Position numbers and translations under genes: made by a program
NCBI GenBank assembly: GCA_013289475.1
Contig: JABCZW010000001.1
Span: 1-64,000 of the forward strand
From: Bacteroidota bacterium
GTDB lineage: Bacteria > Bacteroidota > Bacteroidia > JABEUT01
Direction of reading: 5' to 3'
Length of the DNA stretch: 64,000 bases
Shown: piece by piece, positions 9,434 through 60,105 of the stretch
How the letters are laid out: every line of letters begins with the position of its first letter
Position numbering within the stretch: position 1 is the stretch's first letter
Notes under the pieces: model-generated
Database searches by the model: none
Seen by the model: the letters and a program-made list of their open reading frames with translations, nothing else
Told to the model about the DNA's origin: nothing

Positions 9434-9452
9434 ATTTATATCTATTGTTTGT

Positions 9453-9460
9453 CAAATTTA
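9453..9460 (-). promoter_or_regulatory. -7 promoter box for lipoprotein-lolD operon
   Basis: The minus strand reads TAAATTTG, matching TAnnTTTG, with its last G 20 bp upstream of the ATG at 9433. Confidence 0.5.
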
Positions 9461-9529
9461 AAAAAATCTGCCACTCATGCAATTATTTGGCAAAAATAGT
9501 ATCAAACAAAAGGATGTTCATTTTCTGCT

Positions 9530-10807
9530 TTAATATGGGTAGAAAGATTGCCACATATTTTTCAGGTATTTCCTCAATTCTTCTTCCTTTGTATTTTGCC
9601 CGGGCTCATAAAATATGGTTCCTTTCATATCATCGGGCAAATAATTTTGTGATACAAAATTGCCCTCGTATGAATGAGCATACATATAATCCTTGCCATA
9701 ATTAAGATCTTTCATAAGCTTAGTGGGTGCATTGCGCAGGTGCAGGGGTACAGGCAGGTGAGCCGTTGCTTTTGCTGATTCTATGGCTGCATCAATTGCC
9801 ATATAAGAAGCATTGCTTTTTTGCGAACATGCCATGTAAATTGCAGTTTGCGATAAAATAATTCTCGCCTCAGGCATACCAATAGTATTAACAGCCTGGA
9901 AACAGTTATTGGCGATAACCAATGCTGTTGGGTTAGCGTTACCAATATCTTCCGAAGCCAGTATAACCATACGCCGCGCAATAAATAATATGTCCTCACC
10001 ACCATTTAACATACGTGCCAGCCAGTAAACTGCGGCATTGGGATCGCTTCCGCGCATCGATTTTATAAAAGCCGATATAATATCATAATGATATTCTCCC
10101 TTTTTGTCATACATGGGTACCACTTGCTGGGCAACATTCATAACTATATCATCGGTAATAATACATTCGCCGGTGGGTATCGACATTACCGCAGCTTCAA
10201 ACAAGTTTAGCAGTTTTCGGCCATCTCCGCCCGATAGGCGCAATAAGGCTTGTGTTTCTTTCAACTCAATTTTTCTCAGGCTGAGTTGTTCGTCCTGCTT
10301 CATGGCCCTATTAAGCATTTCGAGCAAATCCTCTTTATCTAAAGTTTTCAGTACATAAACCTGGCTACGCGATAATAATGCAGATATAACCTCGAATGAT
10401 GGATTCTCTGTTGTAGCACCAATAAGGGTAATCTTTCCTTTTTCTACTGCACCCAATAAAGCATCTTGCTGCGCTTTACTAAAGCGGTGTATCTCATCAA
10501 TAAATACTATTGGTGTATTTGCAAAAAGGCCACCTTTCTCAGTCCGTTCAATAATTTCCCTTACATCTTTTACGCCCGATGATATGGCGCTGAGCGAGAA
10601 GAATTCCTTATGCAGATGCTTGGCAATAAGTTGCGCCAAAGTTGTTTTGCCTACACCCGGAGGGCCCCATAAAATAAGCGAAGGTAAATTGCCCGATGCA
10701 ACAAACTTGCTCAATACTCCATCAGGGCCAACCAAGTGCTTTTGCCCCAAATATTCATCGAGTGAATGGGGGCGCATGCGTTCGGCTAATGGAATATTTA
10801 TACTCAT
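9530..10807 (-). CDS. rarA: replication-associated recombination protein A (AAA+ ATPase)
   Basis: 425 residues, normal for RarA/MgsA/WRNIP1. The N-terminus MSINIPLAERMRPHSLDEYLGQ is the family hallmark. Walker A is GPPGVGKTT, Walker B with sensor region is VFIDEIHRFSKAQQDALL, sensor 1 is GATTENPSFEV, followed by the arginine finger LLSRSQVY. The C-terminal half carries the MgsA_C tetramerisation region (RGSDPNAAVYWLARML). It acts on stalled replication forks with clamp-loader-like structure. It is probably monocistronic. Confidence 0.95.
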   Translation of the reverse strand: MSINIPLAERMRPHSLDEYLGQKHLVGPDGVLSKFVASGNLPSLILWGPPGVGKTTLAQLIAKHLHKEFFSLSAISSGVKDVREIIERTEKGGLFANTPIVFIDEIHRFSKAQQDALLGAVEKGKITLIGATTENPSFEVISALLSRSQVYVLKTLDKEDLLEMLNRAMKQDEQLSLRKIELKETQALLRLSGGDGRKLLNLFEAAVMSIPTGECIITDDIVMNVAQQVVPMYDKKGEYHYDIISAFIKSMRGSDPNAAVYWLARMLNGGEDILFIARRMVILASEDIGNANPTALVIANNCFQAVNTIGMPEARIILSQTAIYMACSQKSNASYMAIDAAIESAKATAHLPVPLHLRNAPTKLMKDLNYGKDYMYAHSYEGNFVSQNYLPDDMKGTIFYEPGQNTKEEELRKYLKNMWQSFYPY

Positions 10808-10981
10808 AATGTATTCTTCATTTTTACAATATACAAATTTGCAGAAAATAGCAGAACCTTACTTTGTCGGATTCAGTATAGATAAGGTACTGTCGGTTAT
10901 TTCAATAAGAAAGCTTCAGGTTTTTTTATCTTTTAAACAATATTATTTTTTCATTGTTGGTTCATAATCAATTACTTAAGT

Positions 10982-15245: not shown

Positions 15246-15397
15246 CGTCAGGGAACAATGTTATTTGTACTAATTTAATACTGGCCAGTTTTTAACTTTT
15301 ATCTATAGATGTAAATTATTAGGTAGAGGTTGCTTTACTAAGTAAAAATCAAATATCGCATTGCAATATAAATATTTTTTTTAAAACCACCAAATAA

Positions 15398-18300
15398 TCA
15401 ACGTATTAACTGAAGATAGCCATCCAAATTGTATTTCTTATTGTTATAATCAGTAGCTTTTATTATGTAGTAATATATTCCATCCGATTGATCAATACCA
15501 GCCATACTTTTTCCACTCCAGTCGATGTTTGGTGAATCTGTTTCAAATACTTTCTGTCCCCAGCGGTTAAAAATTTCGAGGTCATAAGTTTTCATTCCTC
15601 CTGCCGTAATGTGGAATACATCATTTTGACCGTCACCATTAGGCGTAAATACATTGGGTACATATAACCCGCCTTCAACAAAAACTGTATCGGTTATTGA
15701 ATCAGAACATCCATATCTGTTAGATGCTATAAGGTAAACTATATATGTGCCGGGCACATTATATTGGTAATACGGCGTTGTATTGGTTGACGACCCTCCG
15801 TCTCCAAAATTCCAATAATATGAAGTTGCTCCTGTGCTCGAATTTGTAAAGCTTACATATTGTCCGCCCCAAATAGTGTTAGGGTTGTCTATAAATGATG
15901 CTATAGGTATGGGGGCGCTGAAAACCAATTCAGAATCTTTAATTGTAGTGCCACATCCATCAGTTACTGAGCATGTATAATAAGTTGATAACACAGGTGA
16001 TATAGTGAATGGACCTGCATTATTAGGCAGACCATTGTTCCATATATAGTTATAGCCTGGCTTGCCACCTGTTACTATTACTTCTACCTGCCCGCTTTTT
16101 CCCAAACAAATTGTATCAGGAGGCATAATAACATTTAATGGAGGGTATAGATAAATTGTTTGGCTGGCACTGTCGGCGCAACTTCCGTTACTGCCAACAA
16201 CTTTATACACCATAGGGCTTGATGGTAGTGTTGCGGTTACAGTTGTTCCTGTTGTAGAACTTAATCCGGTTGACGGGCTCCATGTATATGACACGCCGCC
16301 ATTAGCAGTCATATTAACTGATTGACCAGGACACAGTGTATCATTACCTGATAAAGAAATACTTATTGTTGGAATTGGGTTAACGGTTATGCTTATTTGG
16401 GTTGTGTCATTACAGCCGGCGGCGCTTGTACCCACAACTGTATAAGTAGTAGATGAACCCGGATTTGCGCTTGTACTCGGGCAGGTAGCACATGTCAAAC
16501 TACCGGAAGGAGTCCATGAATAGGTTGTTGCCCCGCTTGCATTAAGTGACGTAGAACTGCCTGAACAAATTGAGGTGTTTGAAGCAGAGGCTGAAACTGA
16601 AGGCAACGGATTTACAGTAATAGCAATATTTGCTGAATCTTTACATCCTGCGGCATCTGTTCCAACAACCGTATACGTGGTTGAAGTGGCGGGGTTGCCT
16701 GTTACTATGGCACCACTTGTAGCGCTTAAGCTTGCAGCCGGACTCCAAACATAACTTGTACCACCAGATGCATCAAGCGAAGTAGTTGTTCCGTTGCAAA
16801 TGCTTGATGATGAAGATCCTGCAGTAATAGAAGGTTTATCAACCTGTATACTTACTGTATCAGTAGCACCGCAACCCGCGGCGCTTGTTCCTGTAACGGT
16901 ATATGTTGTTGTCGAACCGGGATTTGCGTTTGGATTTGTACAAGTGGAACAACTTAGTCCACTGATTGGACTCCATGTGTAAGTATTAGCGCCGCTTGCT
17001 ATTATAGTAGTGCCGCTTGCACCAAAACATATTAAAGGGTTACCTGCAGATACTGATAATGTTGGGGTGGGGTTTACTGTAATTGTAATAGTAGCACTAT
17101 CACTGCATCCACTGCCTGAAGTACCTGTAACGCTATATGTGGTGGTTACCGATGGAGTTGCAGTTACAGGTGAACCAGTGCTTGAACTTAATCCCGTAAT
17201 TGGTTTCCATGTATAATTTAATGCACCTGCAGCAGTGAGTGAAGTTGATGAACCTGAACAAATAGTTGATGATGATGCAGATGCAGTTACTACCAGTTTG
17301 CCAACATTAATACTTACTGAATCTTTTGAAGTACAAGCTCCATTAGTGCCCGTAATAGTATAGGTTATTGAAGATGCAGGGTTTGCTAAAACACTTGCGC
17401 CAGTTGTTATATTCAAGCCGGTTCCGGGACTCCACACATAAGTAGTTGCTCCACTGGCAGTAAGCAGTGCCGTATCGCCGGGGCAAATTCCGGGGCTGGT
17501 TGGTGTAATGGAAACTGTTGGAGTGGGGGTTACACTAATTGTGATTTTTGCAGTATCAGTGCAACCCGAGGCATTTTTACCTACCACCGTATAAGTTGTA
17601 GTGGTGCTGGGTGTTGTTACTACGGGTGTACCCGTAGAAGAACTTAAACTTGCAGCCGGGCTCCATGTATATGTTGATGCGCCGGTAGCTTTAATAGTAT
17701 CTGAGGTTCCTGAACATAAGTTAGGTGATGAAGTAGTTGACAGAGTTACAGTGGGTGTCGGGTTGACTGTTATTTTAATACTGTCTCTGCCAGTGCAGCC
17801 GCCTGCAAGAGTACCTATAACGGTATAAGTAGTGGTTACACCCGGGTTTGCAATTACATATGATCCTGTTGAGGAGTTTAAACTTGCAGCTGGACTCCAT
17901 GTGTATGAGGTAGCTCCACTTGCAACAAGCCCAATTGTATCACCGGCACAAAGTGAAGGTGATATACCCGTTATAGCAATTGAAACGGTAGGGGTTGTAG
18001 TTACAGTTACAACAATACTATTAGTATTTATACAACCTCCTGCGCTTGTGCCTGTGACAGTATAGGTAGTTGTAACGGTTGGACTTGCAACTACAGAAGT
18101 GCCCGTAGTTTTATTTAATGCTGTAGCCGGGCTCCATGTATAAGTAGTTGCTCCGCCTGCAGTTAGTGTGGTTGACCCACCTGAACATATTGTTGATGAA
18201 GGAGCGGCATTAACTGTAACAGTTGGAGTAGGATTTACAGTAACAACAAGTTTTGCTGTATCATCACAGGCACCTACAATATTACCAATTACAGTATAAG

Positions 18301-19357
18301 TTGTAGTAACAGTAGGTGTTGCGATTACGCTGGCACCGGTAGTTGTATTTAAACTTGCAGCAGGGCTCCAGGTATAGCCTGTAGCACCACTGGCAGTTAG
18401 TGTTACGGAATTTCCTGAACATATGTTTGAAGAAGTTGGGGACGCAACCAGCGGGTTGGTGGTAGGTTTAAAGCTTCCGCCTTTTAATAATACGCCTGAA
18501 TCGAATTTACCATTTCCTATATCGGCTAAACCTAATTTTATATGATATTTTTTACCGCATTGTACATAGGCTTTTGCAGTAAGTACAGTAGTAAAACCAT
18601 TATAGCCAACTGTTGTGGTTGCCAGAGTTGCAGGGCATGTGGAACAACCCGTTGAAGCCGGCCAATTACAAACATAATAGGCTGAGTTAGTGGTACAGTT
18701 AACTGAGTTTATATAAACTGCTGTTGTGGTTTTAGGTATGAGTGCAAGGTTAATAGCTCCGCGCGAAAAAGGGCCCGCTATACCCGGGCCGCTTAAAAAA
18801 AAACCGAAATCATCAAGGTATTTACTGCCAACATAATAAGGCTCTTCATTTGATGCAAACACATATTGAAACTCTATAGAATCAGATGTGGCAACAAAAT
18901 CAAATTGCAATAATGCGCATGAATAAGTATTAGCATAAGTTGTTCCAATTAAATTAGCAAGATCAGTATCCCGGTATGTATTGCTTGCAGGCCAGCCATC
19001 TGTAGTACTGTAATTATATGTTGTGTATTTTCCATCACTTTTATCACTTGCTTTGCTGTTGGGCCCATCGGCAAGTGTTATAGTACCATTGGTCATAATT
19101 AAGCCACTATCCATTCCTATATTAGACGTCTTTCCATTAAAAAAACCAAACGAAGTATCTATACCCTGGTAAGTAATATTAGTCGCAATTACACCGCTTC
19201 CTAAAAGTACATTATTAACCAGGTAGTTTATCTTGGCATAGTTACCGGCCCTGGTTGTAGTTAACTGCGCTTGTGCATTAAAATTAAACACAGACACAAA
19301 TAGGGCAATTAATAAAACCGATTCAGTAAAATGTAATTGTATTTTTTTCATTTTCAT
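15398..19357 (-). CDS. giant secreted Ig-like repeat protein with gliding-motility-associated C-terminal domain
   Basis: 1319 residues. A signal peptide ends near 30 (NAQAQ). The N-terminal domain (about 32-295) has the choice-of-anchor L pattern: SFGFFNGKTSNIGMDSGLIMTNG followed by LQFDFVATSDSIEFQYVFASNEE. Ten Ig-like repeats of about 75-80 residues follow (about 300-1070), each with ICSG.S..L.ASGAT.Y.WSP...L and TTTYTV.G. A PKD domain (WNFGDGGSS) and a CHU_C domain (VPNVFTPNGDGQNDVF ... IFNRWGQKVFETD ... GIYYYII) close the protein. CHU_C is a type B-like T9SS cargo domain, so the protein should be on the cell surface, probably as an adhesin. The leader carries a CCCCTGG element shared with two other CHU_C genes here. 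Confidence 0.9.
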   Translation of the reverse strand: MKMKKIQLHFTESVLLIALFVSVFNFNAQAQLTTTRAGNYAKINYLVNNVLLGSGVIATNITYQGIDTSFGFFNGKTSNIGMDSGLIMTNGTITLADGPNSKASDKSDGKYTTYNYSTTDGWPASNTYRDTDLANLIGTTYANTYSCALLQFDFVATSDSIEFQYVFASNEEPYYVGSKYLDDFGFFLSGPGIAGPFSRGAINLALIPKTTTAVYINSVNCTTNSAYYVCNWPASTGCSTCPATLATTTVGYNGFTTVLTAKAYVQCGKKYHIKLGLADIGNGKFDSGVLLKGGSFKPTTNPLVASPTSSNICSGNSVTLTASGATGYTWSPAASLNTTTGASVIATPTVTTTYTVIGNIVGACDDTAKLVVTVNPTPTVTVNAAPSSTICSGGSTTLTAGGATTYTWSPATALNKTTGTSVVASPTVTTTYTVTGTSAGGCINTNSIVVTVTTTPTVSIAITGISPSLCAGDTIGLVASGATSYTWSPAASLNSSTGSYVIANPGVTTTYTVIGTLAGGCTGRDSIKITVNPTPTVTLSTTSSPNLCSGTSDTIKATGASTYTWSPAASLSSSTGTPVVTTPSTTTTYTVVGKNASGCTDTAKITISVTPTPTVSITPTSPGICPGDTALLTASGATTYVWSPGTGLNITTGASVLANPASSITYTITGTNGACTSKDSVSINVGKLVVTASASSSTICSGSSTSLTAAGALNYTWKPITGLSSSTGSPVTATPSVTTTYSVTGTSGSGCSDSATITITVNPTPTLSVSAGNPLICFGASGTTIIASGANTYTWSPISGLSCSTCTNPNANPGSTTTYTVTGTSAAGCGATDTVSIQVDKPSITAGSSSSSICNGTTTSLDASGGTSYVWSPAASLSATSGAIVTGNPATSTTYTVVGTDAAGCKDSANIAITVNPLPSVSASASNTSICSGSSTSLNASGATTYSWTPSGSLTCATCPSTSANPGSSTTYTVVGTSAAGCNDTTQISITVNPIPTISISLSGNDTLCPGQSVNMTANGGVSYTWSPSTGLSSTTGTTVTATLPSSPMVYKVVGSNGSCADSASQTIYLYPPLNVIMPPDTICLGKSGQVEVIVTGGKPGYNYIWNNGLPNNAGPFTISPVLSTYYTCSVTDGCGTTIKDSELVFSAPIPIASFIDNPNTIWGGQYVSFTNSSTGATSYYWNFGDGGSSTNTTPYYQYNVPGTYIVYLIASNRYGCSDSITDTVFVEGGLYVPNVFTPNGDGQNDVFHITAGGMKTYDLEIFNRWGQKVFETDSPNIDWSGKSMAGIDQSDGIYYYIIKATDYNNKKYNLDGYLQLIR
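16150..18460 (-). repeat. ten tandem ~235-bp Ig-like coding repeats
   Basis: Ten units of about 225-240 bp, each encoding the pattern Cys-x-Gly, then Ala-Ser-Gly-Ala and Trp-Ser-Pro. Units are less homogeneous than those at 12475-14545, so they are older or under less gene conversion. Confidence 0.75.
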
Positions 19358-19607
19358 ACCAGGGGATATGATGTTATAGTAATTGAACTTTTAGTCAGAA
19401 TAATTGCTCACTTGTTCTCTTTGCAAAGTATACAAACAAAACTTGCCTGTGTATTAAGCATACATTAAATAAATAAGCAGTAAGGATTCTCTTTTGAAAA
19501 CCAAATACTTAGCATCTTCTTGGAAGACAAAGTATTATTTTTCACGATTGAATATTACTCGCAGGGACGATTTATATTCTGGTTGCTTAACGCGCCAAAA
19601 GTAAATA

Positions 19608-19640
19608 AATACTTCACATATACTATATATGTGAAGTATT
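19608..19640 (-). terminator. perfect A/T-rich hairpin, probable terminator
   Basis: Arms of 15 bp, AATACTTCACATATA and its exact complement, flank a 3-nt loop, 34 bp beyond the stop of the GloVer-repeat gene. Read on the minus strand it is followed by a T-rich stretch (TATTTATTTACTTTT). The remainder of the gene-free stretch 19358-19673 shows nothing else apart from the leader of the gene at 19357. The stem contains no G/C clamp, so a regulatory dyad is an alternative. Confidence 0.55.
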
Positions 19641-19673
19641 ATAAATGATCAATAATATTTTGGGAATACCCGG

Positions 19674-22208
19674 TTATTGCACAACTATTTTTGAAGATGA
19701 AATATAGTTGTGATTTGCATCGAAGATTTTTAAAAGATACATTCCTGCTGCAAGATTATCCCTCGAAATTTCGCAACGGGTTGAGTTGCATGATAATGAT
19801 TTTATTTTTTCACCGGTTAGCGTATACATTTCCACATACTTAGTTCCTTCACTGCTAAATAGTATTGTGGCGGCGTCTTTAAACGGATTAGGGTAAACCA
19901 ATATTACCTCATTGGGCTGGGTTACATTGTTTATACCCGAAACGTACCCGCCAATAATAATTATACTTGTTGGGTTTGCACCATTGGTATCACTAAAGCT
20001 AAGTAATACCGAGTCTTTATTGGTTACAGTATTATAACTGAATAGTACACCATAATTTGAGAGTCCGCCAATTGACGTTGTTCCATACAGAATTGTACCG
20101 CTACTGTCTAATACCAGTGAACCGTTCGGGTTTGCGCCATTGGCCCCGTTAAAGTTCATAAGCGGTTTTTCTTTGTTGGTTTTTGGATCAAAATTGAACA
20201 ATACACCAGCGCCCTGCTTGCCTCCAAAGTAAGTCATTCCGTATAATAAGCCATCGCTTGCCTGAACAAGATTACCATACGGCGCTTCTCCGCTTGTAGA
20301 GTCATTAAAACTATAAAGAGGTTTGTATAATTTGGTTTTAGTGTTGAAGTTAAAGATTACACCATCGTAATTTGCACCACCGCTGTTGGTCATTCCATAA
20401 AGCAATCCATCACTGGCTTGCATCAATCCTCCATAAGGAGAGAAGCCTATATTGTCTGAAAGGTTTATAAGTACACTGTCTTTACCTGACACAGGGTTAT
20501 AGTAAAATAAAACTCCCTCATAGTTGGTTCCTCCTTCAGGAGCCATACCATAAATTAAACCATTCGATGCCTGCATAAGATTACCCTGCGGATAATCTCC
20601 GTTCACATCATTAAAGTTCGAAACTACTTTTTGTGTGTTGGTCTTAGTATCAAAACTGAATATGACACCTTCGTTATTACTGCCGCCATATTCTGTCATG
20701 CCATATAATAAGCCATTTGAAGCCTGTATAAGGCCCGCATAAGGATATTGGCCTGATATACTGTCGAAGCTATAAAGCGTATTACTAACACCCGTTGTGT
20801 AATTAAAGCTAAAAATATTTCCGTAAAAATTAGTACCGCCTAATAATGACATACCATATAAAAGTCCGTCAGATGCTTGTACCAATGAATTATTATTAGT
20901 TACTGTTCCGCTGAAATTAAACAGAACACTGTCTTTATGTGTTATTGTATTGTAGCTAAACAAAACACCATAACCATAATGCCCACCACTAAAAGTCATT
21001 CCATATAGCAGTCCGTTTGAATCAAGCACCATGCTACCATAAGGATATGCACCATTGTTTCCGTTAAAATCAAATATAACACTGTCAATTCCTGAAACAG
21101 GGTTGTAACAGAATAATGTTCCGTAATTACTATATCCTCCTTGCTCAGTCATTCCATACAATAAGCCATCTTTTGCCTGTACTAAGCTTCCATCAGGGTA
21201 ATCTCCTCCAATATCGTCAAGGCTCAAAACCGTAGCCGTATTTAATCCGCTCGCCGGGTCAATGGAAAAGAGTACGCCACCATTATTATTGCCTCCCTGG
21301 CTTACAAGGCCATATAGCATCCCATCTTTTGCCTGCATCACATCATTAAAGTAAGGGAAGGCACCGTGTATACTATCAAAGCTGAATATTACACTATCAT
21401 ACCCTGTTTTAGGGTCAATACAAAATAATGATCCATCATTTGATGAAGTACCACCCTCGTATGTCATACCATATAACAAACCATTTGACGCCTGCATCAA
21501 TGAGCCTTCAGGTGAAACGCCGTCATAGTACTGGAAATCATGAATCAATGTATCTTTTCCCGTTACAGGGTTATATGTAAATATTACACCATCTTTATAA
21601 AGGCTATCACCACCCCAACTGGTCATTCCGTAAAGCCAGCCATTCGATGCCTGCATAAGGTTACCCATAGGGTTTGAGCCATTGGTAGTATCATCAAAAT
21701 TGCGAATAATACTGTCTTTACCGGTTTTAATGTTGTAGCTAAAAAATACACCATTATTAGATTTTCCTCCACTATCAGTCATTCCATAAAGTAATCCATT
21801 AGATGCCTGGAAGAGGCTACCGGATGGGTATGCACCGTTAGGCCCATCGAAACTTATAATAACACTATCTCTCCCTGTTTTAATATTGTAACAAAAAGCA
21901 GTTCCATAGCCTTTAGTTCCCCCGTACCATGTCATTCCGTATAGCTTACCGTTTGATGCTTGTATAAGATTGCCCAATGGGTTTCCAAACGTTAATTCTA
22001 CTTTCTTTCCGTTTAAGTGAATAGGAGTATGGTCTTTCCCTGTGCCCATATCATACTGGAAAATTACCCCAAAGCCTTTATTGCCTCCGCCTGAAGTCAT
22101 TCCAATAGCCTTGCCGCTTGCAGCTTCAGCTTGGTGAGATGAATATTGTGCATTTACAAGAAATGTTGAAATAAGTAAAGTGGTTAAAATGAGTATAGAT
22201 TTTCTCAC
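19674..22208 (-). CDS. secreted GloVer-type tandem repeat protein with T9SS type A sorting domain
   Basis: 844 residues from a GTG start; signal peptide ends near 20 (LVNAQ). The body is 13-14 repeats of about 50-56 residues (about 30-740), each with G(L/W)LYGMT..GG...GV.F.YN..TGKDSV...F....G..P.G.L.QAS. This is the pattern of the choice-of-anchor tandem repeat called GloVer (Gloeobacter/Verrucomicrobia), predicted to fold as a beta-propeller or solenoid. The C-terminus (about 765-844) is a type A T9SS sorting domain (VYPNPFKDAATILF ... LAAGMYLLKIFD). Surface-exposed or released; ligand unknown. The TPR-PP2C gene ends 71 bp upstream in the same direction. Confidence 0.88.
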   Translation of the reverse strand: MRKSILILTTLLISTFLVNAQYSSHQAEAASGKAIGMTSGGGNKGFGVIFQYDMGTGKDHTPIHLNGKKVELTFGNPLGNLIQASNGKLYGMTWYGGTKGYGTAFCYNIKTGRDSVIISFDGPNGAYPSGSLFQASNGLLYGMTDSGGKSNNGVFFSYNIKTGKDSIIRNFDDTTNGSNPMGNLMQASNGWLYGMTSWGGDSLYKDGVIFTYNPVTGKDTLIHDFQYYDGVSPEGSLMQASNGLLYGMTYEGGTSSNDGSLFCIDPKTGYDSVIFSFDSIHGAFPYFNDVMQAKDGMLYGLVSQGGNNNGGVLFSIDPASGLNTATVLSLDDIGGDYPDGSLVQAKDGLLYGMTEQGGYSNYGTLFCYNPVSGIDSVIFDFNGNNGAYPYGSMVLDSNGLLYGMTFSGGHYGYGVLFSYNTITHKDSVLFNFSGTVTNNNSLVQASDGLLYGMSLLGGTNFYGNIFSFNYTTGVSNTLYSFDSISGQYPYAGLIQASNGLLYGMTEYGGSNNEGVIFSFDTKTNTQKVVSNFNDVNGDYPQGNLMQASNGLIYGMAPEGGTNYEGVLFYYNPVSGKDSVLINLSDNIGFSPYGGLMQASDGLLYGMTNSGGANYDGVIFNFNTKTKLYKPLYSFNDSTSGEAPYGNLVQASDGLLYGMTYFGGKQGAGVLFNFDPKTNKEKPLMNFNGANGANPNGSLVLDSSGTILYGTTSIGGLSNYGVLFSYNTVTNKDSVLLSFSDTNGANPTSIIIIGGYVSGINNVTQPNEVILVYPNPFKDAATILFSSEGTKYVEMYTLTGEKIKSLSCNSTRCEISRDNLAAGMYLLKIFDANHNYISSSKIVVQ

Positions 22209-39043: not shown

Positions 39044-39838
39044 ATGCGAATTTTTTCAATTCTGTTAATATCGCTTTCCTTTGCAATTACTGCAATGGGG
39101 CAGCAATCTACGTCTCAAAATGGCTTTACAAATAAAGCCGAAGCAAAGAATGAGGTTAAGGGTGGTGCAAAAGAAGGTAAATGGAAGGAGTACCTCGATT
39201 ATGATGGCAATGTTACCGCCGATACCAATTTAGCTGTTTATTACCGCCTAACATTTTATAAGACAGGTAAGCCCGATGGTATTGTAAGAATGTATTACAA
39301 GAACGGAACCTTATATTTTGAAACTCCATATACCGATGGCAAAATGAATGGGGTAGAAAAATGGTATTATGCAAGCGGAAAAATTATGTTGGAAATACCT
39401 TTTACGGATAATGTATTGAATGGGGTTAAGAAGATATATTACGAGAGTGGAGACTTAAGCCAGGAAATTCCATATACCAATGGTAAATGCAATGGTGTTG
39501 AAAAAATATATTATGTAGGTGGGAAATTAAGTGAAGAAATACCTTATACCAACGGTAAAGAAAATGGTATTGAGAAAACATATTACGAAAGTGGCACGGT
39601 GAGTAAGGAAACTCCTCTTACCGATGGTAAGGAAAATGGTGTTGAGAAAGATTTTTATGAGGACGGATTATTGCGCCGCGAAACACCATATACCGACGAT
39701 AAGAAAGATGGAGTTGTAAAGGAATATTTCGAAAATGGGGTGATACAGCGTGAGACCCCATACCATGATGATGAAATAAGCGGAACGATTGTGTGCTACA
39801 ATGCAAACGGTTACGAAATAAGCAGACAAGGCAGGTAG
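39044..39838 (+). CDS. secreted MORN-repeat protein (paralogue 1)
   Basis: 264 residues. A signal peptide ends near 19 (ITAMGQQ). After KNEVKGGAKEGKWKEYLDYDG come about eight repeats of 23 residues (about 65-255) of the form NGVEK.YYESG.LS.EIPYTDGK. This is the toxin-antitoxin YwqK-like MORN variant common in Bacteroidota. MORN hairpins often bind membranes or partner proteins; here the array is exported to the periplasm or surface. It is followed after 31 bp by a longer paralogue in the same direction, so the two form a tandem duplication and probable operon. Confidence 0.85.
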   Translation: MRIFSILLISLSFAITAMGQQSTSQNGFTNKAEAKNEVKGGAKEGKWKEYLDYDGNVTADTNLAVYYRLTFYKTGKPDGIVRMYYKNGTLYFETPYTDGKMNGVEKWYYASGKIMLEIPFTDNVLNGVKKIYYESGDLSQEIPYTNGKCNGVEKIYYVGGKLSEEIPYTNGKENGIEKTYYESGTVSKETPLTDGKENGVEKDFYEDGLLRRETPYTDDKKDGVVKEYFENGVIQRETPYHDDEISGTIVCYNANGYEISRQGR

Positions 39839-39869
39839 TATCTGTCGGCATCATTATAAACCACAAATT

Positions 39870-40865
39870 ATGAGAATTTTTTTAATAGTACTGTTTACAG
39901 TGTTATTAGCTGTTACATCCTTTGGGCAACAGTCCCAGATTCAGCCAGGCTTTACAGATACCAGCGAAGCTAAGAATATTATAAAACATGGCCTCAAAGA
40001 AGGTAAGTGGATTGAATATCTTGATGATGATTTGGATGCTACATCAGATTCCAATGCCTCTTATTATAAACTTACTATATATAAAGTAGATAAAGCTATC
40101 GGAATACAGAGAGTGTATTACATTGACGGAAAGTTATACCGGGAAAAAACCTATACAAATGGTAAGGCAAATGGGATATCTAAGGTTTATTATGAAAGCG
40201 GAAAGTTATTCGGGGAAGCAACTTTATCGAACGACCTTTTAAATGGTATTGCTACAGCTTATTATGAGAATGGAAAAATAAAAAATGAATGGCCTTATAA
40301 GAATGATAAATTAAATGGGGTGGCAAAAGAGTATTATGAAAATGGAAAGCTAATGAGCGAAACTCCTTTTACAGATAGCCTGGCAAACGGGGTGGAGAAA
40401 GATTATTATGAAGATGGTGCTTTACAAATGGAAACACCATATAAAAATGATAATGCAGATGGAGTAGAAAAGGATTATTACGAGGATGGAAAATTGGAAC
40501 AGGAGATACCTTATAGTAATGGAAATGCCAATGGCATAACGAAGTACTATTATGAAGATGGTAAAATAGAAAGTGAATACCCATATATTGAGGGTAAAGA
40601 AAATGGTATTGAGAAACTATATTATGAAAATGGTAATCTGGAAGAAGAAGCACCGTACATAAACGATACCATTAATGGGCTTTATAAAAGATATTTTAGC
40701 GATGGCAAGGTGAATACAGAAGCTGTTTTTGTAAATGGGAACATGAATGGCGATGTAAAATGGTATCGCGAAAATGGTAAATTAAGCCAGGTGATTCAAT
40801 ATCATAATGGTATTATAAGAGGAGGAATAAGAAACTACGATGAAAACGGAGAAGAGATTAACTAG
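39870..40865 (+). CDS. secreted MORN-repeat protein (paralogue 2)
   Basis: 331 residues. The N-terminus (MRIFLIVLFTVLLAVTSFGQQ) and the segment AKNIIKHGLKEGKWIEYLDDD align directly with the upstream paralogue. About eleven 23-residue repeats (about 70-325) follow, e.g. NGVAKEYYENGKLMSETPFT. It differs in repeat number and in a higher Asn/Asp content. No enzymatic domain is attached. Function unknown. Confidence 0.85.
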   Translation: MRIFLIVLFTVLLAVTSFGQQSQIQPGFTDTSEAKNIIKHGLKEGKWIEYLDDDLDATSDSNASYYKLTIYKVDKAIGIQRVYYIDGKLYREKTYTNGKANGISKVYYESGKLFGEATLSNDLLNGIATAYYENGKIKNEWPYKNDKLNGVAKEYYENGKLMSETPFTDSLANGVEKDYYEDGALQMETPYKNDNADGVEKDYYEDGKLEQEIPYSNGNANGITKYYYEDGKIESEYPYIEGKENGIEKLYYENGNLEEEAPYINDTINGLYKRYFSDGKVNTEAVFVNGNMNGDVKWYRENGKLSQVIQYHNGIIRGGIRNYDENGEEIN

Positions 40866-40894: not shown

Positions 40895-41548
40895 TTATTT
40901 GTCTTTTTTCTCCTTACATTCCGCCAGCATCTTCTCATTGATTGCCTTACCCCAATGTGGTTTATGTATATCCTGGCTATCGTTGGCGAATAAAGCTTCT
41001 GCTTTTTCGTAAAGAGGTTGTGCTTTATCAACGCCACCACCCCAAAGTTTTGGAGTGTAGAATTTGCTATTGCCTTGCATGTAATACATGCGTGGGTTGT
41101 TTGGGTTTAGCTTAACTACCTGTGCCAAATAAGTATCCGATATTTTACCGTATTTACCATGCCTGCTGCCGGGATCAACCGAAAGCCTTGCCTGTGCCAG
41201 TAAAGCGCCTAATAGTGCAATCTCATCATTGGTTGAATCCATTAATTCGATCTTGCTGAAGAAATTATCGGCTTCATTCAGCATAGGGTCCTTTTTGTCC
41301 TTATTCGGTTCCTGGAAAGAAAGCACTGCTATACTCCACGCCGCATAATAATTAGCCAGCCAATATGTTGGTGACTGTTTAGCTATAAGTTTAAACTGGT
41401 TGCTTGCCATTAAAAACTGAGGATAAGATTTAGCAGTATCAAAAGCTGTATAGGTTTGAATGAGCAGCGTATCAACCGATTGTGCCTGCCCGCTTTTTGA
41501 TGCTAGGAATCCTAAGGCAATTGCAAGAATAAGAAGTGTCTTTTTCAT
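40895..41548 (-). CDS. exported TPR-like protein, unknown function
   Basis: 217 residues with a signal peptide ending near 22 (SGQAQS). The rest is predicted helical with degenerate tetratricopeptide-like pairs (WLANYYAAWSIAVLSF; LAQVVKLNPNNPRMYYMQGN; KAQPLYEKAEALFAND). It starts 21 bp after the TonB receptor gene in the same direction and closes the six-gene operon starting at 46615. It may be a periplasmic partner of the receptor. Confidence 0.75.
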   Translation of the reverse strand: MKKTLLILAIALGFLASKSGQAQSVDTLLIQTYTAFDTAKSYPQFLMASNQFKLIAKQSPTYWLANYYAAWSIAVLSFQEPNKDKKDPMLNEADNFFSKIELMDSTNDEIALLGALLAQARLSVDPGSRHGKYGKISDTYLAQVVKLNPNNPRMYYMQGNSKFYTPKLWGGGVDKAQPLYEKAEALFANDSQDIHKPHWGKAINEKMLAECKEKKDK

Positions 41549-41569
41549 AATGATTATATAATTGATTGA

Positions 41570-43744
41570 TTAAAGTTCGTCTTTTTTATAAGGTGTTAAA
41601 GATAGGAATACCCCTGCAAACAGACTTCTGTATAAAGCAGGTACAATAGGGTACCTGTTTAATCCATTGTCAGAATACCTGTAACCCAATACATTTTGAT
41701 TGTTGGTCACGTTATCCACTCCAAGATAAAATACTCCAAATAATTTCTTTACCCTGAATAAATAACTGAAGCTTGCTGATAGATCCTGGTAAGCAGGAGA
41801 GCGATCAGATAAAAATGTAGGGTTATTGGGGTTATAGTAAGGACGACCTGAAGCATAAGCGTATGTTAGAGAAACATTAATGCCCGGCTTCTCAAAAAAA
41901 TACTTGGTTACTATGTTGAGGTTGTTGGCTGATACATAATCAGGCATAGCTTCAGTAACATAATTCTGGTAAAGTCTCTTAGTGTCGATATAGCTGTATG
42001 ATATCCAGTAATCGAAATCCTTAATACTCTTTTTATCTCTCCAGAAAATGTCAATTCCTTTTGCATAGCCATAACCACTATTATCTACAGGATAATATAG
42101 CGGGCGGTATGGGTTAGGATCGTAAGGTGCTCCTTCTGTAAGTTCTCTTATCAAATCACTATATGATTTATAGTATCCTTCAATCCTGAATGTACGGTCG
42201 TTATACATGTATTGGTAATTCAAAATGTAGTGTGTTGCTTCCTGGAATTTAACTTTTGAATCGCCATAAATTAAATACCTGTCCGATGGATCCTGATAAA
42301 ACATTCCGTATGCTGCTGAAACCTGCCCGTATTTATTGATGCGGATTGCTGCAGAAATTCTTGGAGCAATATCGCTCTTTGCCAATAACTGGCTATACTC
42401 AAAACGTACACCGGGTTTAAGCCCAAACCATTTTACCGGCTTCCATTCTCCCTCAAGATAACCTGCTACTTGAGTTTCAGTAAATGAAAAGCTGGTACTA
42501 TCAAACTGCTGCTTTTCAGAATAACGTTGCACTTCCGTTCCTAAATATGCAAACAATTTACTTCCTAATTGTTTCCCAAGCTCCACTCGCCCTTGTGCAC
42601 GGGTATCTTGTTTGTCAAAGTTCTGGCCACCCCAGTGCACGGTATCACCATTCTGGCTATATGATGAACCAACCATAAGGTAAGCGCCATCACCAATAAT
42701 ATGCCTGTAATATAAGCTATACGCCATGTATGAGTTTTGAAGATTAAATGCCAGTGTTGTATCAGGTTGATTTGGATTAACCACATCTATTCCACTTTTG
42801 TATTGGTCAAATGTTCCGCTTAGTTTTAAAATATCTCCTTTGGTGTTTGTCCAGATATACTTTAATGAGCCGCTGAAACCAGTTGGTGGCTGAAAGAAAT
42901 CAATATTTGTCTTTGTAATACCATAAAACGGCTGTGTATTGGTGTAATTGATACCACCTTCAAGCGCTGAATGCGCCCACAGTTTTGTGCCGGATATACC
43001 CAAACCTGCCATATTTATATTGGCATTAAATGTTGCTTCTTCGGGTAAATCATTTGTATTCAGTTCTAGTATTCCGGAGAGTGCCTGCCCATAACGTGCA
43101 CTATATCCCCCGCTACTGAAAGAAATGCCCTTGAATTCGTAAGGGCCAAAGCGGCTGCGTTGCGCAACCCCCGGTACAGGGCTGAAAAATGGGTCCTGAA
43201 CTACTAATCCATCTACAATAGCCGCAGATTCACTTGCATCGCCACCACGGACAAATAACCCTGTTTGGTCTGATACTTTTTGGAGCCCGGGTAGTGTTTG
43301 CAATGCACCTACAACATCTCCCTCAGCACTGGCTGTTGTATAAATATCAAGCGTGGTAAGGGCAGCAACTTTCCTGTCATTACTGGCTTCCATTGCTCCG
43401 GGAGATATGGTTACTTCATCAAGTTGGCTCGTATTCGTTTTCAAAGTAAGGTTAACAATATATGTTTTGCCTGTGTCAGCAGTAAGGCTATAAATTGCAG
43501 TATCGAATCCTATCGCGGTCGCAATAATAATTACATTTTCCTTTTTATTCAGGTGCATAGAATAGCGCCCAAGTGTGTCTGTAAGTGCGCCGGTAATAGT
43601 ATTCTTTAAATAAATAGTTGCAAAAGGAATTGGTTTCCCTTTTTGTTCCGTAACCTTTCCTTTAATTGTCATTTGGGCATTTACTGCCAACGAAAGGAGG
43701 GTTAAGGGTATGGCTAATGATTGTGATATTTTTATGGTTTTCAT
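41570..43744 (-). CDS. TonB-dependent outer-membrane receptor
   Basis: 724 residues, signal peptide ending near 23 (AVNAQ). A CarboxypepD_reg-like domain (about 25-112: GKVTEQKGKPIPFATIYLKNTITGALTDTLGRYSM) precedes a plug domain (about 120-235: GDVVGALQTLPGLQKVSDQTGLFVRGGDASESAAIVDG). A 22-strand beta-barrel is predicted to about 720 with repeating aromatic strand ends. Shorter than SusC, and no SusD gene follows, so the ligand is probably not a glycan taken up by a Sus-type pair. It lies 6 bp after the HMA-like gene in a regulator-headed operon. Confidence 0.9.
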   Translation of the reverse strand: MKTIKISQSLAIPLTLLSLAVNAQMTIKGKVTEQKGKPIPFATIYLKNTITGALTDTLGRYSMHLNKKENVIIIATAIGFDTAIYSLTADTGKTYIVNLTLKTNTSQLDEVTISPGAMEASNDRKVAALTTLDIYTTASAEGDVVGALQTLPGLQKVSDQTGLFVRGGDASESAAIVDGLVVQDPFFSPVPGVAQRSRFGPYEFKGISFSSGGYSARYGQALSGILELNTNDLPEEATFNANINMAGLGISGTKLWAHSALEGGINYTNTQPFYGITKTNIDFFQPPTGFSGSLKYIWTNTKGDILKLSGTFDQYKSGIDVVNPNQPDTTLAFNLQNSYMAYSLYYRHIIGDGAYLMVGSSYSQNGDTVHWGGQNFDKQDTRAQGRVELGKQLGSKLFAYLGTEVQRYSEKQQFDSTSFSFTETQVAGYLEGEWKPVKWFGLKPGVRFEYSQLLAKSDIAPRISAAIRINKYGQVSAAYGMFYQDPSDRYLIYGDSKVKFQEATHYILNYQYMYNDRTFRIEGYYKSYSDLIRELTEGAPYDPNPYRPLYYPVDNSGYGYAKGIDIFWRDKKSIKDFDYWISYSYIDTKRLYQNYVTEAMPDYVSANNLNIVTKYFFEKPGINVSLTYAYASGRPYYNPNNPTFLSDRSPAYQDLSASFSYLFRVKKLFGVFYLGVDNVTNNQNVLGYRYSDNGLNRYPIVPALYRSLFAGVFLSLTPYKKDEL

Positions 43745-43750
43745 AGTCTT

Positions 43751-43975
43751 TTAATAATTGAGTACTTCGCAACGGAAGTTTCGTTGTTCTAATAATTTTA
43801 TAACATCTGATGACCTTACTTTTCCTTTATGGTTCTCTACCCGTAAAACTTTGTCTTTATCATCAAGGTCAATGCTTACTTTATGGCCGGGAAACATAGC
43901 GTTCATTTCTCCAATAAGGTAGAGGGCGTTTCTTTTGCCGCTTACATTTGTTTTAAATATTTCTACGGAACTCAT
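43751..43975 (-). CDS. small HMA-like protein without metal-binding cysteines
   Basis: 74 residues from the ATG at 43975; ATGs or TTG upstream (43987, 43999) would overlap the response-regulator gene and extend it by 4-8 residues. The pattern VEIFKTNVSGKRNALYLIGEMNAMFPGHKVSIDLDDKDKVLRVEN...VIKLLEQRNFRCEVL predicts the beta-alpha-beta-beta-alpha-beta ferredoxin-like fold of heavy-metal-associated domains. The CxxC motif is absent, so metal binding in the usual way is unlikely. It sits between the LytT regulator and the TonB receptor. Confidence 0.7.
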   Translation of the reverse strand: MSSVEIFKTNVSGKRNALYLIGEMNAMFPGHKVSIDLDDKDKVLRVENHKGKVRSSDVIKLLEQRNFRCEVLNY

Positions 43976-43988
43976 AATTAGGTGCATT

Positions 43989-44732
43989 TTATATTCCAAG
44001 GATTGATTTTAGTTTAGGATAACCTGTTTTACTTATTGGTATTCGCGCACCCGATTTTAAGATAGCAAGGTGACCTTCTTTTTCATAAGGTTCAATGCGT
44101 GTTACCTGTTGTATTTGTATTATATATGAGCGGTGTACCCTTACAAATTGGACCTTATCCAGTACTTCTTCAAAATAGCTCATGGTTTTCTTTTTCAAAT
44201 GAGAGCCATCTGCTGTATGAATTTTAACATAGTCATCATCTGCTTCAAGGTATTGTATCTCATGCATCGGTATAATACGGATCTTACTACCGGTTTTAAC
44301 TACTACTCTGTTATATTGATCTGGTTGTTGACTCGCACTTTCTATTAACGATTGTATGGCCTCTTTTCCATCCGGCTTTTCATAGTGTTCTTTCCACTTC
44401 TTCATAGCCTTGTCAAAACGTTCTTTACTAAAGGGTTTTAGAAGATAATCTACGGCGTGCGCTTCAAAAGCTTTCATAGCGTACTCATCGAATGCCGTGG
44501 TAAATATTACCGCCGGAGGTGTATCAAGTAATTCAAGCATTTCAAAGCCATTTATTTTTGGCATCTGTACGTCGAGGAAAATAAGATCGGGTTGATGCTG
44601 GGTTATAGCTTTAACTCCTTCAAACCCATCGCTGCATTCCTGCACAATCGATATATCAGTATAGCTCTGCAAGTATTCTGCAAGTATTGATCTTGCCAGG
44701 GGTTCATCATCAATAAGTATTGCTTTTATCAT
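43989..44732 (-). CDS. LytTR-type response regulator
   Basis: 247 residues. The receiver domain (1-120) has Asp54 in IFLDVQMPKING, Thr in FTTAFDEYAMKAFEAHAVDYLLKPF. The LytTR DNA-binding domain (about 145-245) shows VKTGSKIRIIPMHEIQYLEADDDYVKIHTADG and FVRVHRSYIIQ. The start overlaps the kinase stop by 4 bp. It probably controls its own operon, including the TonB receptor. Confidence 0.93.
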   Translation of the reverse strand: MIKAILIDDEPLARSILAEYLQSYTDISIVQECSDGFEGVKAITQHQPDLIFLDVQMPKINGFEMLELLDTPPAVIFTTAFDEYAMKAFEAHAVDYLLKPFSKERFDKAMKKWKEHYEKPDGKEAIQSLIESASQQPDQYNRVVVKTGSKIRIIPMHEIQYLEADDDYVKIHTADGSHLKKKTMSYFEEVLDKVQFVRVHRSYIIQIQQVTRIEPYEKEGHLAILKSGARIPISKTGYPKLKSILGI

Positions 44733-45766
44733 GCTGTTTGCGGTATTATAACAGTTGTAGTAAATAAGTTGTTTTCCGCTTTGGTTTCAATCAGATCTTT
44801 GCGCGCATACAATAAATATAGCCTGCGCTGTATTGAGCTAAGCCCAAAGCCTGTGCCTTGTCTTGACTGAGATGTTTGTGGGTCAAATGGGTTTTGAATC
44901 GCTATTGCCAGTTGTCCATTCTCAGATTTTACATTGATAGTTATAGTTACTGTCCCGGTAGTATCATAGAGCCCAAACTTTATTGCATTCTCTACAATGG
45001 GTTGCAATAACATTTGTGGCACGGGGAGTTTAAGACTTAGCTCGTCATATTTTATTTCTGTACTCAACCTATGCCCAAAGCGAACTTTTTCAATATCTAA
45101 ATACAATTGCAGATAATGGAGCTCTTCTTCCAGGCTCACCAACAGTTTTTCATCATTCTTCAAAGTACCACGTAAAAAATCGGCAAGCTGTTGTATCATG
45201 TGTCTGGCTTCTTCAGGGCGACTACCCGTAAGTGAACTGATAGAATTCAAACTATTGAATAGGAAGTGAGGGTGAAGCTGCTGGCGCAGTTTATATAGCT
45301 CAGCATCTTTCGATAATTTATCCGCGTCAGCTTTTCTCTTTTCATTTTCACTGTTCTCTTCAAAGCTGAACAGGAGCCAATTTATTAATGCCATCCAACC
45401 TGTCATTAAAAAAGCTATAAAGAAACGGACAGGTAATGATTTGTAAAGAAAAGCAAGGTACGTAGGGTCTGTAATAAGTTGTGATAAAGCCCATTTTACA
45501 ACACCTATCCAAATTGCTGCTATGCAAAAATTCCAAACAAACATATAAAAGAACCTTCCCCTGCCGGGACGATAGTAGCGTAAAATGTTCCTTACTGTTA
45601 AGCCAATACCCATAAGCAATCCATTACTTACGGCACTGTCAATTATTGCTGTTTGTAATAGGAATCCACTCCATGTCAGCACCCAAGCCTGCAGAGTACC
45701 CCATGCAATCCATAAAAGGATTATCGGAAATATCATTTTTCTATTTGAAAGCTCAGGGGCTTGCAT
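44729..45766 (-). CDS. LytS-type membrane histidine kinase (His_kinase family)
   Basis: 345 residues. Four membrane helices in residues 12-135 have very short loops, so the signal is probably within the membrane or passed on by another membrane protein. The His_kinase domain has phospho-His167 in LHPHFLFNSLNS, and the ATPase part has PQMLLQPIVENAIKFGL and GTGFGLSSIQRRL. It overlaps the LytTR regulator gene by 4 bp and starts 18 bp after the LiaF-like gene, which may act as its signal input. Confidence 0.92.
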   Translation of the reverse strand: MQAPELSNRKMIFPIILLWIAWGTLQAWVLTWSGFLLQTAIIDSAVSNGLLMGIGLTVRNILRYYRPGRGRFFYMFVWNFCIAAIWIGVVKWALSQLITDPTYLAFLYKSLPVRFFIAFLMTGWMALINWLLFSFEENSENEKRKADADKLSKDAELYKLRQQLHPHFLFNSLNSISSLTGSRPEEARHMIQQLADFLRGTLKNDEKLLVSLEEELHYLQLYLDIEKVRFGHRLSTEIKYDELSLKLPVPQMLLQPIVENAIKFGLYDTTGTVTITINVKSENGQLAIAIQNPFDPQTSQSRQGTGFGLSSIQRRLYLLYARKDLIETKAENNLFTTTVIIPQTA

Positions 45767-45784
45767 GGCTGATTTCTTTATCTA

Positions 45785-46615
45785 TTAATAACTAAGTATG
45801 TCAATACCTGCAAAGATAGAGGTACCATCGATTACCAATACCTTATCGGGATTATGCTTTGCTGTGGCAGGGTTTCTTTTGTCTTCCACGCCTCCAAAGA
45901 TCGAAACCATCTTTGATTGTATCTCCCAATCGGCAGGAACAATAATTTTTGTGCCTCCGAATATTTGCACCAATTCCAATGTTACTTTGCCTTTAATATC
46001 TGCTTGGCTAAGATTTATTTCAGCTCCGCCGAAAATGTTCACCACATCTCCACCCTTAAAGTCTTTCGATACAATTACTTTATGCACACCGCCAAAAATA
46101 GAAACGGAATCAATAAAATCATCTTGCGAATATGCTGTAGCAGGGGGAGTTTGCCCATATTTAGCTTGATATTTCCATTGCCATTTTTTGCTTTTGCTCT
46201 CCCAATATGCATTGTTATGCCAGTCCCAATGACGCCTTTTAGGGCGTAATATCATAAGTAGGCCCGCGCTTATTATAATTATTGGCCATATATAATCTGA
46301 TATATTAAGGTTAGGATAGAACTCTTCAGTCAGGAAAACACCTCCTACCAGCATTACAATAGGCCAACCACCCAAACGGAAATTGTGTCGTGCCCCAATA
46401 TAAAAACCAACTGCAATTACTATCATTGGCCAGGTAAATAGCCAGTCAGGGAAAATTACAGCATTAAGTTGTTTTAAAAGAAGTATTACACCTATAGCTA
46501 AAATTATTATTCCTCCAAAAAATCTTCCTGAGCGGGAGTGATGGTGTATATCATCTGATATTCGTTTAGTATAGTCAGGTTGTGTTTCTGTGAATTTGTT
46601 GTCTTGCGTTTCCAT
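45785..46615 (-). CDS. LiaF-like membrane protein
   Basis: 276 residues from METQDNKF; a longer frame opening at 46678 is rejected because its first codons lie upstream of the -7 box at 46633-46640. Four membrane helices (about 30-130) are followed by a cytoplasmic, Trp-rich linker (KRRHWDWHNNAYWESKSKKWQWKY). The C-terminal domain (about 170-275) carries three IFGG repeats (VSIFGGVHKVIVS, VNIFGGAEINLS, VQIFGGTKIIVP) typical of LiaF_C / cell-wall-active-antibiotic response proteins, plus a fourth VSIFGGVED. LiaF-type proteins modulate envelope-stress kinases. It is the first gene of the operon. Confidence 0.85.
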   Translation of the reverse strand: METQDNKFTETQPDYTKRISDDIHHHSRSGRFFGGIIILAIGVILLLKQLNAVIFPDWLFTWPMIVIAVGFYIGARHNFRLGGWPIVMLVGGVFLTEEFYPNLNISDYIWPIIIISAGLLMILRPKRRHWDWHNNAYWESKSKKWQWKYQAKYGQTPPATAYSQDDFIDSVSIFGGVHKVIVSKDFKGGDVVNIFGGAEINLSQADIKGKVTLELVQIFGGTKIIVPADWEIQSKMVSIFGGVEDKRNPATAKHNPDKVLVIDGTSIFAGIDILSY

Positions 46616-46632
46616 GATATTGAAATTTGATA

Positions 46633-46640
46633 CAAATGTA
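46633..46640 (-). promoter_or_regulatory. -7 promoter box of the LiaF-LytST-TonB receptor operon
   Basis: The minus strand reads TACATTTG, matching TAnnTTTG, 18 bp upstream of the ATG at 46615. It fixes the translation start of the LiaF-like gene. Confidence 0.55.
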
Positions 46641-46728
46641 TAGTAGTTGAATACTACCCTGTTAAGGCAAATAGGCAATAAAACATGAAAAGTCGGTAAA
46701 TGGCAGGAACAAGTCGGTAAGCGGAGCC

Positions 46729-59658: not shown

Positions 59659-60105
59659 ATGGGAAACATTGTAAATGAAATATCGATTAATGCTCCAATT
59701 GAAAAGATATGGAGTATTTTAACTGACCTTGCATTATTAGATCAGTATGACCCTACTGTAAAGAAATCAACCCTTATATCGAATGATAGAACAGGCTTGG
59801 GCGCAAAAAGAAGGGTTACAATGTTCGACGGAAAGAACTGGTTTGAAGAAAAAGTGACCGTTTTTGAAATTAATAAAGCATTGACCTACCAGTTAACGGA
59901 TTGCTCTTTCCCCATAAAAGGATTGAAGCATAGTTATTCATTTGAAAAGACAGGTAATGAAATAAAAGTAAGGCAGGTAATGGAATATACCGTGAAGTTT
60001 GGATTGTTGGGAAAGGTTTTGGATAGCTTAATGATACGTAAGCAATCGGATACAGGGATAAAGAAATTTTTTGCAGGGCTGAAGCAATTCGCCGAAAAAA
60101 ACTAA
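59659..60105 (+). CDS. SRPBCC/polyketide-cyclase-like protein
   Basis: 148 residues with the START-like helix-grip fold: NIVNEISINAPIEKIWSILTDLALLDQYDPTVKKS, then beta-strands (RRVTMFDGKNWFEEKVTVFEINKALTYQLTD) and a long C-terminal helix (IKKFFAGLKQFAEKN). These proteins bind small hydrophobic ligands; the ligand is unknown. First gene of a two-gene unit with the TfoX_N gene 8 bp downstream. Confidence 0.88.
   Translation: MGNIVNEISINAPIEKIWSILTDLALLDQYDPTVKKSTLISNDRTGLGAKRRVTMFDGKNWFEEKVTVFEINKALTYQLTDCSFPIKGLKHSYSFEKTGNEIKVRQVMEYTVKFGLLGKVLDSLMIRKQSDTGIKKFFAGLKQFAEKN

Follow-up and report, generated by a model that had tools for sequence, protein, structure and literature searches.

The window considered here comprises 64,000 nucleotides of contig JABCZW010000001.1 from a draft Bacteroidota genome which is 57% complete (GCA_013289475.1), and the subject of this report is a run of six genes on its minus strand, from 46615 to 40895, together with the DNA directly before them. 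In operon order the genes encode a LiaF-like protein, LytS, LytT, a small HMA-fold protein, a TonB receptor and a TPR protein. The features of the locus are the following.

46711..46718, minus strand: operator box 1, ACCGACTT, kept in 7/7 genus loci with the operon
46690..46697, minus strand: operator box 2, ACCGACTT, candidate LytTR-type box
46669..46676, minus strand: operator box 3, GCCTATTT, candidate LytTR-type box
46633..46640, minus strand: -7 box TACATTTG, Bacteroidota type, 28 nt after box 3
45785..46615, minus strand: LiaF-like membrane protein (Pfam LiaF-TM 73 bits, cut-off 27; LiaF-like_C 30.7, cut-off 29)
44729..45766, minus strand: LytS-type histidine kinase (Pfam His_kinase PF06580)
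43989..44732, minus strand: LytT response regulator with receiver and LytTR DNA-binding domain (Pfam Response_reg and LytTR)
43751..43987, minus strand: small HMA-fold protein of 74-78 aa, start probably at 43975, from an unnamed Bacteroidota family
41570..43744, minus strand: TonB-dependent receptor (Pfam CarbopepD_reg_2; Plug 23.7, just below its cut-off of 23.9)
40895..41548, minus strand: HusA-like TPR-fold protein (phmmer and Foldseek to PDB), with a signal-peptide-like N-terminus read by eye

An initial annotation, made from the sequence alone, had proposed a six-gene operon at this place, and the gene calls, the same-strand layout and the order kept in relatives bear it out. The intergenic distances in operon order are 18, -4, +1, 6 and 21 bp. 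Four of them had been given correctly before, but the distance from LytT to the small protein is not -1; it is +1, or 13 bp if counted from the second ATG at 43975, which agrees better with the starts of homologues. In the Pfam scan of the operon proteins no cut-off was reached by the small protein or by the TPR protein, and the LiaF-like protein stays below the NCBIfam LiaF equivalog threshold (23.6 bits, cut-off 57).

Between the LiaF gene and an MFS_1 transporter gene, which lies upstream on the same strand and ends at 46729, a LytTR-type operator is predicted that had been overlooked earlier: three 8-bp boxes with a period of 21 bp. The -7 box announced before the first gene was located behind them (TACATTTG, 46640-46633), and it follows the consensus of the Bacteroidota type. 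Published autoregulation sites of LytTR proteins are described as 9-bp repeats, mostly 12 bp apart and near the promoter (PMC6193735); as this period (9 + 12 bp) is that of the operon boxes, the geometry fits LytTR sites. Two general scans were uninformative, namely one for sigma-70 promoters (19 promoter-like sites vs 20.8 expected), whose model does not cover Bacteroidota promoters, and one for terminator-like sites (6 vs 4.8 expected).

Conservation was followed in a genus sample of 11 genomes, the window's own included (genomes are labelled G and loci L in the following). The full order of six genes is found in five of the ten other genomes (G002, G004, G006, G007 and G010), once with an SRPBCC gene inserted and twice with the TPR gene cut or at a contig end, and a sixth relative (G009) has the same order without TonB. 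The gaps between LytS and LytT in G010 (453 bp) and G009 (462 bp) contain an SRPBCC gene, and in G002 LiaF and LytS lie within one open frame of 607 aa. LytT is present at 69% identity or more in 9/11 genomes, with the window's own counted.

The three-box operator precedes LiaF in all seven genus loci having LiaF-LytS-LytT-HMA, with a consensus of about ACCGAC(T/A)(T/A), ACC(G/T)ACTT and (A/G)CCTA(A/T)T(T/A), then TAnnTTTG. Candidate boxes stand upstream of LiaF in all nine genomes with a LytT orthologue (box 2 is degenerate in G001 and G008, where the boxes show 5/24 mismatches, with 1 and 0 of 500 shuffles as low), and a 21-bp repeat occurs in 8/10 LiaF upstream regions, other periods in at most two. 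In G004, G006 and G010, that is in three of the five relatives with TonB beside HMA, TonB is immediately preceded by a second copy of the operator, which has a promoter of its own; these sites were located with a pattern derived from the LiaF sites, and the gap between HMA and TonB is 113-133 bp in the same genomes. In the window, G002 and G007 this gap is 4-21 bp and holds no operator. At all ten operon sites (seven before LiaF, three before TonB) the -7 box follows box 3 at 27-28 nt, and over ten related sites the box columns carry a mean of 1.68 bits vs 0.94 in the spacers. Separate promoters for the parts of the operon, listed in the initial annotation as speaking against a single unit, thus do exist in three relatives, but the second promoter bears the same operator, which strengthens the case for common control. 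The earlier claim that the regulator commands the receptor pair gains support from the operators at both places.

Outside the operon the picture depends on the stringency of the search. Zero-mismatch three-box matches in the 11 genomes number ten and lie without exception at the operon, the pattern having been built from these sites. A two-box search with one mismatch allowed returned 13 sites elsewhere, of which four have TAnnTTTG 27-28 nt past the last box, while none of the other nine has a -7 box within 60 nt. The four sites precede two SRPBCC genes, an ABC ATPase gene and a 62-aa open reading frame (ORF), and none of them falls inside an ORF longer than 60 aa; as candidate targets the ABC-transporter gene and the small ORF come from single genomes each. 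When the SRPBCC family was searched for at the protein level, four orthologues (63-67% identity) turned up away from the operon, along with five weaker paralogues. Every one of the four orthologues has an operator with 0-3/24 mismatches and a -7 box 27 nt on, with 0/500 shuffles as low in each case. Four of the five paralogues lack a scorable -7 box, and the fifth shows 11 mismatches, a score equalled or bettered by 279/500 shuffles. The SRPBCC sites were read by eye after the strict operator pattern had failed (no match at any SRPBCC locus, its one match being the TonB site of L291) and were then scored with a spacing of 20-22 bp against shuffles; two of the four orthologue sites had escaped the pattern search. 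A further SRPBCC gene (Polyketide_cyc2) lies in the window itself at 59659-60105, is a weak match to this family and has no operator.

The last gene had been described as coding for a periplasmic TPR protein, a description to be corrected in that the product is a homologue of the haemophore HusA. It matches PDB 6bqs/6crl (PG_2227) with a phmmer E of 4.7e-28 and 35% identity over 179 aligned residues, the sole PDB sequence match under E 0.001, and a Foldseek search with its model (mean predicted local distance difference test score, pLDDT, 76.8) gave 6bqs as the best match (E 7.4e-6), again the sole one under 0.001. The title of the 6bqs entry names the HusA haemophore, and identity as a generic TPR adaptor was dropped on this match. 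The TPR-like groove of HusA from Porphyromonas gingivalis is reported to bind porphyrins, which the protein presumably passes to HusB, and homologues have been noted in free-living Bacteroidetes (PMC6173696, PMC10100897). Among the porphyrin-groove residues, F80, Y164, S137 and S161 are kept in the window protein, while W130 is replaced by His, S115 by Ala and S119 by Gln; among 27 homologues position 80 is F or Y in 21 and position 164 is Y or F in 24. The receptor is called HusB-like by position and partner only, and its one match in the PDB search, at E 0.0018, was to a fragment of a SusC homologue. Receptor and TPR gene are accordingly described here as a HusB/HusA-like pair, a predicted porphyrin or haem uptake unit.

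The small protein between the regulator and this pair was modelled with AlphaFold2 (mean pLDDT 89.9) in an HMA fold, beta-alpha-beta-beta-alpha-beta, which aligns to GolB with a VIA-align Z of 10.8 and a root-mean-square deviation of 1.2 over 64 residues. HMA domains head the Foldseek list, with no E value under 0.001; by sequence, the PDB profile search was not significant (best HMA chain E 0.19). Its family occurs in 56/395 genomes of the class, and no fewer than 416 stretches of named genomes contain it. The conserved motifs are FKTN, which follows strand 1, and FDLEDCDKILR, which lies around strands 2-3, and the members tested reach no Pfam or NCBIfam entry above cut-off. CxxC is the metal-binding motif of HMA metallochaperones. 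The absence of metal-binding Cys noted in the initial annotation holds: the only Cys of the window protein lies close to the C-terminus, CxxC is absent, and any CxxC is found in only 1/48 and 2/58 rows of two family alignments (the window with 47/48 HMA loci, L068 being omitted for its unsure start; the window with 57 of 80 loci, near-copies and one short match omitted). Copper or metal handling is disfavoured, as CxxC is missing and the window protein has Lys where the DCD motif usually carries its Cys. Neighbours of the 48 HMA loci, each family being named from one Pfam-tested member, are DJ-1/AraC regulators (22), VOC (22), DoxX (14), DUF2807 (6) and DUF4287 (3) genes; DUF2807 is a Toastrack domain, as is the LiaF C-terminus. 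Two same-genus paralogues (L016 and L017) are clustered with genes of the VOC type, DoxX and DUF4287.

The class-wide context of the HusA-like gene was examined next to that of the genus. The TPR protein has matches at E <=0.001 in 76/395 class genomes, and the HusA stretch itself as query in 71/395; of the 69 matching genomes outside the genus, 59 supplied the 60 loci analysed, and weak matches among these may be general TPR proteins. Neighbours (LytS, LytT, LiaF, HMA) were counted by same-strand tblastn from 6 kb before to 4 kb after, so that their numbers are lower bounds. A TonB gene lies upstream in at least 48/60 loci, in 44 within 700 bp and in four at about 0.7-2.1 kb. LytS and/or LytT are found near 25 loci, an HTH_34 regulator with an unnamed membrane protein near 19 and neither near 16, with no overlap between the first two sets. 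The HTH_34 set (L146, L148-L150 and others) consists of the HusA-like gene, the unnamed membrane protein, the HTH_34 regulator and often a 2TM protein. The combination of a stress-type regulator with such a pair had been called unusual; LytSR beside it is common (25/60), but LiaF beside it is rare (1/60), and the HMA-fold protein was seen beside it in none of the 60 loci outside the genus. Repeats of 9 bp at a 21-bp period stand before TonB in 9/44 distant loci (other periods from 11 to 40 in at most two, except period 12 in five), in 7/17 loci with LytSR vs 2/27 without (Fisher one-sided 0.011, kinship not corrected).

The one arrangement of LiaF, LytSR and HusBA outside the genus is L331 (G330, another family), where 2109-10850 shows the order LiaF-LytS-LytT-HusB gene-HusA gene-LytS-LytT; the pair is thus flanked by two LytSR pairs, of which the upstream one is headed by LiaF and the downstream one is of the common HusBA-linked kind. 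Its LiaF is preceded by two ACCGA boxes spaced 21 bp, and TACATTTG follows 28 nt past the last box; a 21-bp repeat of another kind precedes its HusA, and no repeat was found before its TonB. In the LytT tree, which has several long branches and gave long-branch warnings, the nine genus rows form one group (100/98), next to the first LytT of L331 (98/96), the nearest relative of genus LytT outside the genus. This arrangement together with the tree indicates that LiaF-LytSR became linked to HusBA before the genus arose, or that this link has moved. It seems that LytSR control of HusBA arose or was replaced more than once.

Taken together, it is fairly probable that the operon is a self-regulated LytS-LytT unit controlling a HusB/HusA-like uptake pair; control of the pair by LytT is supported by the conservation of the operon, the operator before LiaF and TonB and the targets off the operon. 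The gene order, the homologies, the operator conservation and the links of operator to target are directly seen, and from them a course of events may be proposed. The LiaF-like membrane protein would sense or relay an inner-membrane change to LytS and gate this kinase. Phosphorylated LytT would bind the tandem repeats just upstream of the Bacteroidota promoter and activate its own operon along with the HusBA-like pair and a small regulon, comprising the SRPBCC gene and, in single genomes, the ABC transporter and the small ORF. The HusA-like protein may, by homology, bind porphyrin or another flat hydrophobic ligand and pass it to the TonB receptor, and the HMA-fold protein may be a cytosolic non-metal adaptor or a ligand-handling protein. 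The label of envelope stress is a putative one which rests on the LiaF homology and the kind of co-targets.

A number of points weigh against this reading. Genus-wide site counts do not exceed those of a reversed-pattern control (13 vs 17, 18 vs 17 with up to 3 mismatches, and 23 vs 35), and for this reason the case is built on exact sites, their spacing and their targets. The 21-bp repeat alone is not very rare, being found in 38/2000 mononucleotide shuffles of the window's 150 bp. A near-perfect three-box site (one mismatch) precedes a TetR-like gene in G002, named by eye, and has no -7 box; boxes 1 and 2 of the SRPBCC sites are spaced 20 bp and not 21; the full three-box score at L331 is weak (7/24 mismatches, 2/500 shuffles as low); and 25/27 HusBA-locus rows of the LytT tree fall in another group than genus LytT. 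In G003 and G005 (60% and 86% complete) the SRPBCC site is present and no LytT orthologue was found. In G001 (L303) and G008 (L302) LiaF-LytS-LytT is followed by TolC/outer-membrane-efflux, HlyD and RND-type genes (OEP, HlyD and ACR_tran in a Pfam run on the G008 genes), with no match to HMA or HusA. Unlinked genes in relatives had been named in the initial annotation as evidence against the unit, and these two genomes provide it in part; linkage is kept in the five full-order relatives and, without TonB, in G009. As to the ligand, the only HusA protein known to bind porphyrin is that of P. gingivalis, and W130 is W in only 5/27 homologues. The available portion of the HusA paper assigns no role to relatives outside Porphyromonas and suggests that the porphyrin function arose in that genus (PMC6173696). 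GlutR, the first haem-synthesis enzyme, is present in 4/7 HusA carriers (G000, G007, G009 and G010; the other three are 61-70% complete), which weakens a simple rescue of haem auxotrophs. G008, 99% complete, has neither a GlutR nor a HusA match, and the carriers G009 and G010 do have GlutR; both observations speak against a pair that serves auxotrophs alone.

Several of these points would suit a unit of detoxification or envelope defence, in which the same LytT regulation serves another ligand, such as a membrane-active compound, a lipid or an antibiotic-like substance. The SRPBCC protein and, in one genome, the ABC transporter as co-targets, the efflux set behind the same regulator in two relatives, the MFS_1 gene directly upstream in the window, GlutR in the carriers and the loss of W130 all point in this direction; HusA as the only match under E 0.001 in both sequence and structure searches of the PDB and the mostly conserved aromatic stacking positions do not, and we hold such a ligand to be somewhat unlikely. 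It is improbable that the operon is a mere fusion in which LytT regulates itself and the HusBA pair is a passenger on a shared promoter: no operator lies before TonB in the window, L010 and L011, but operator and promoter stand directly before it in three relatives, and a LiaF-LytSR unit precedes HusB in another family. There is likewise little chance that the boxes belong to a regulator other than LytT, for which one may cite that LytT binding is deduced from sequence and that G003 and G005 carry the SRPBCC site with no LytT orthologue found, since LytTR proteins bind direct repeats at a period of about 21 bp, the boxes are found before LiaF in all nine LytT-bearing genus genomes and, two of them, in L331, and G003 and G005 are incomplete.

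In its regulator the preferred LytS-LytT unit belongs by Pfam domains to the LytTR two-component systems, having a receiver-LytTR regulator and a LytS-type kinase. LRS systems consist of a LytTR protein without receiver domain and a membrane inhibitor. Like them and other LytSR-type systems, the operon has direct repeats of about 21 bp just upstream of its own promoter and a membrane partner protein; it is not an LRS, as its LytT bears a receiver domain and has a kinase partner, and it has three boxes vs two. With LiaFSR/VraTSR and the PSP-partner systems it shares a LiaI-LiaF-TM and Toastrack-type protein encoded with a two-component system. Membership in LiaFSR was dropped because the kinase and regulator types differ (a PF06580 kinase and a full LytTR regulator, not a LiaS/LiaR-type kinase and winged helix-turn-helix), and the window system is in Bacteroidota with a TonB uptake pair among its predicted targets. 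LytTR in operons with LiaF-type Toastrack proteins has already been reported for Firmicutes (PMC11237479).

As in HusA/HusB of P. gingivalis, a HusA-like TPR-fold protein is encoded next to a TonB-dependent receptor; the pair in the window differs in its lineage, in the lost W130, in the linkage to LytSR and LiaF, and in a HusB likeness drawn from position and partner. Expression of hus depends on iron and haem, and the accessible text names PgFur and HaeSR as regulators of the hmuY and gingipain genes but not of hus (PMC10100897). Papers matching both HusA and LytTR concern other subjects, as judged by their titles and the start of their abstracts, and a LytTR mutation in an F. johnsoniae coevolution study has no known link as far as the available part of that study goes. 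The HMA copper chaperones (Atx1, GolB, CopZ) share the fold of the small protein (VIA-align Z up to 10.8), but the window protein is without CxxC, keeps the FKTN and FDLEDCDKILR motifs of its family, and its relatives often stand beside DJ-1/AraC, VOC, DoxX and DUF2807 genes.

The remaining surroundings can be described briefly. Two adjacent MORN_2 repeat genes lie downstream at 39044-40865, convergent with the operon, and three large proteins, predicted to be secreted and bearing type IX secretion signals at the C-terminus (Por_Secre_tail, CHU_C), are encoded at 11271-22208.

It can be said that the operon is a variant combining known kinds, in which the linkage of LytSR to HusBA is common and LiaF beside HusBA is rare. 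Its operator, promoter spacing and targets make up a directly testable control circuit, and the HMA-fold family deserves attention as a common one with a very conserved motif and, among the members tested, no Pfam or NCBIfam entry. In a wider picture, which we regard as speculative and rather unlikely as a whole, HusBA-type porphyrin uptake would be a widespread Bacteroidota module, in which a dedicated LytSR clade, the HTH_34/membrane/2TM set or LiaF-LytSR would sense porphyrin or its membrane damage and adjust uptake, and the HMA-fold family would be a metal-free carrier or adaptor acting in the cytosol with SRPBCC proteins. That HusA-like genes are linked to LytSR across the class points to a general rule.

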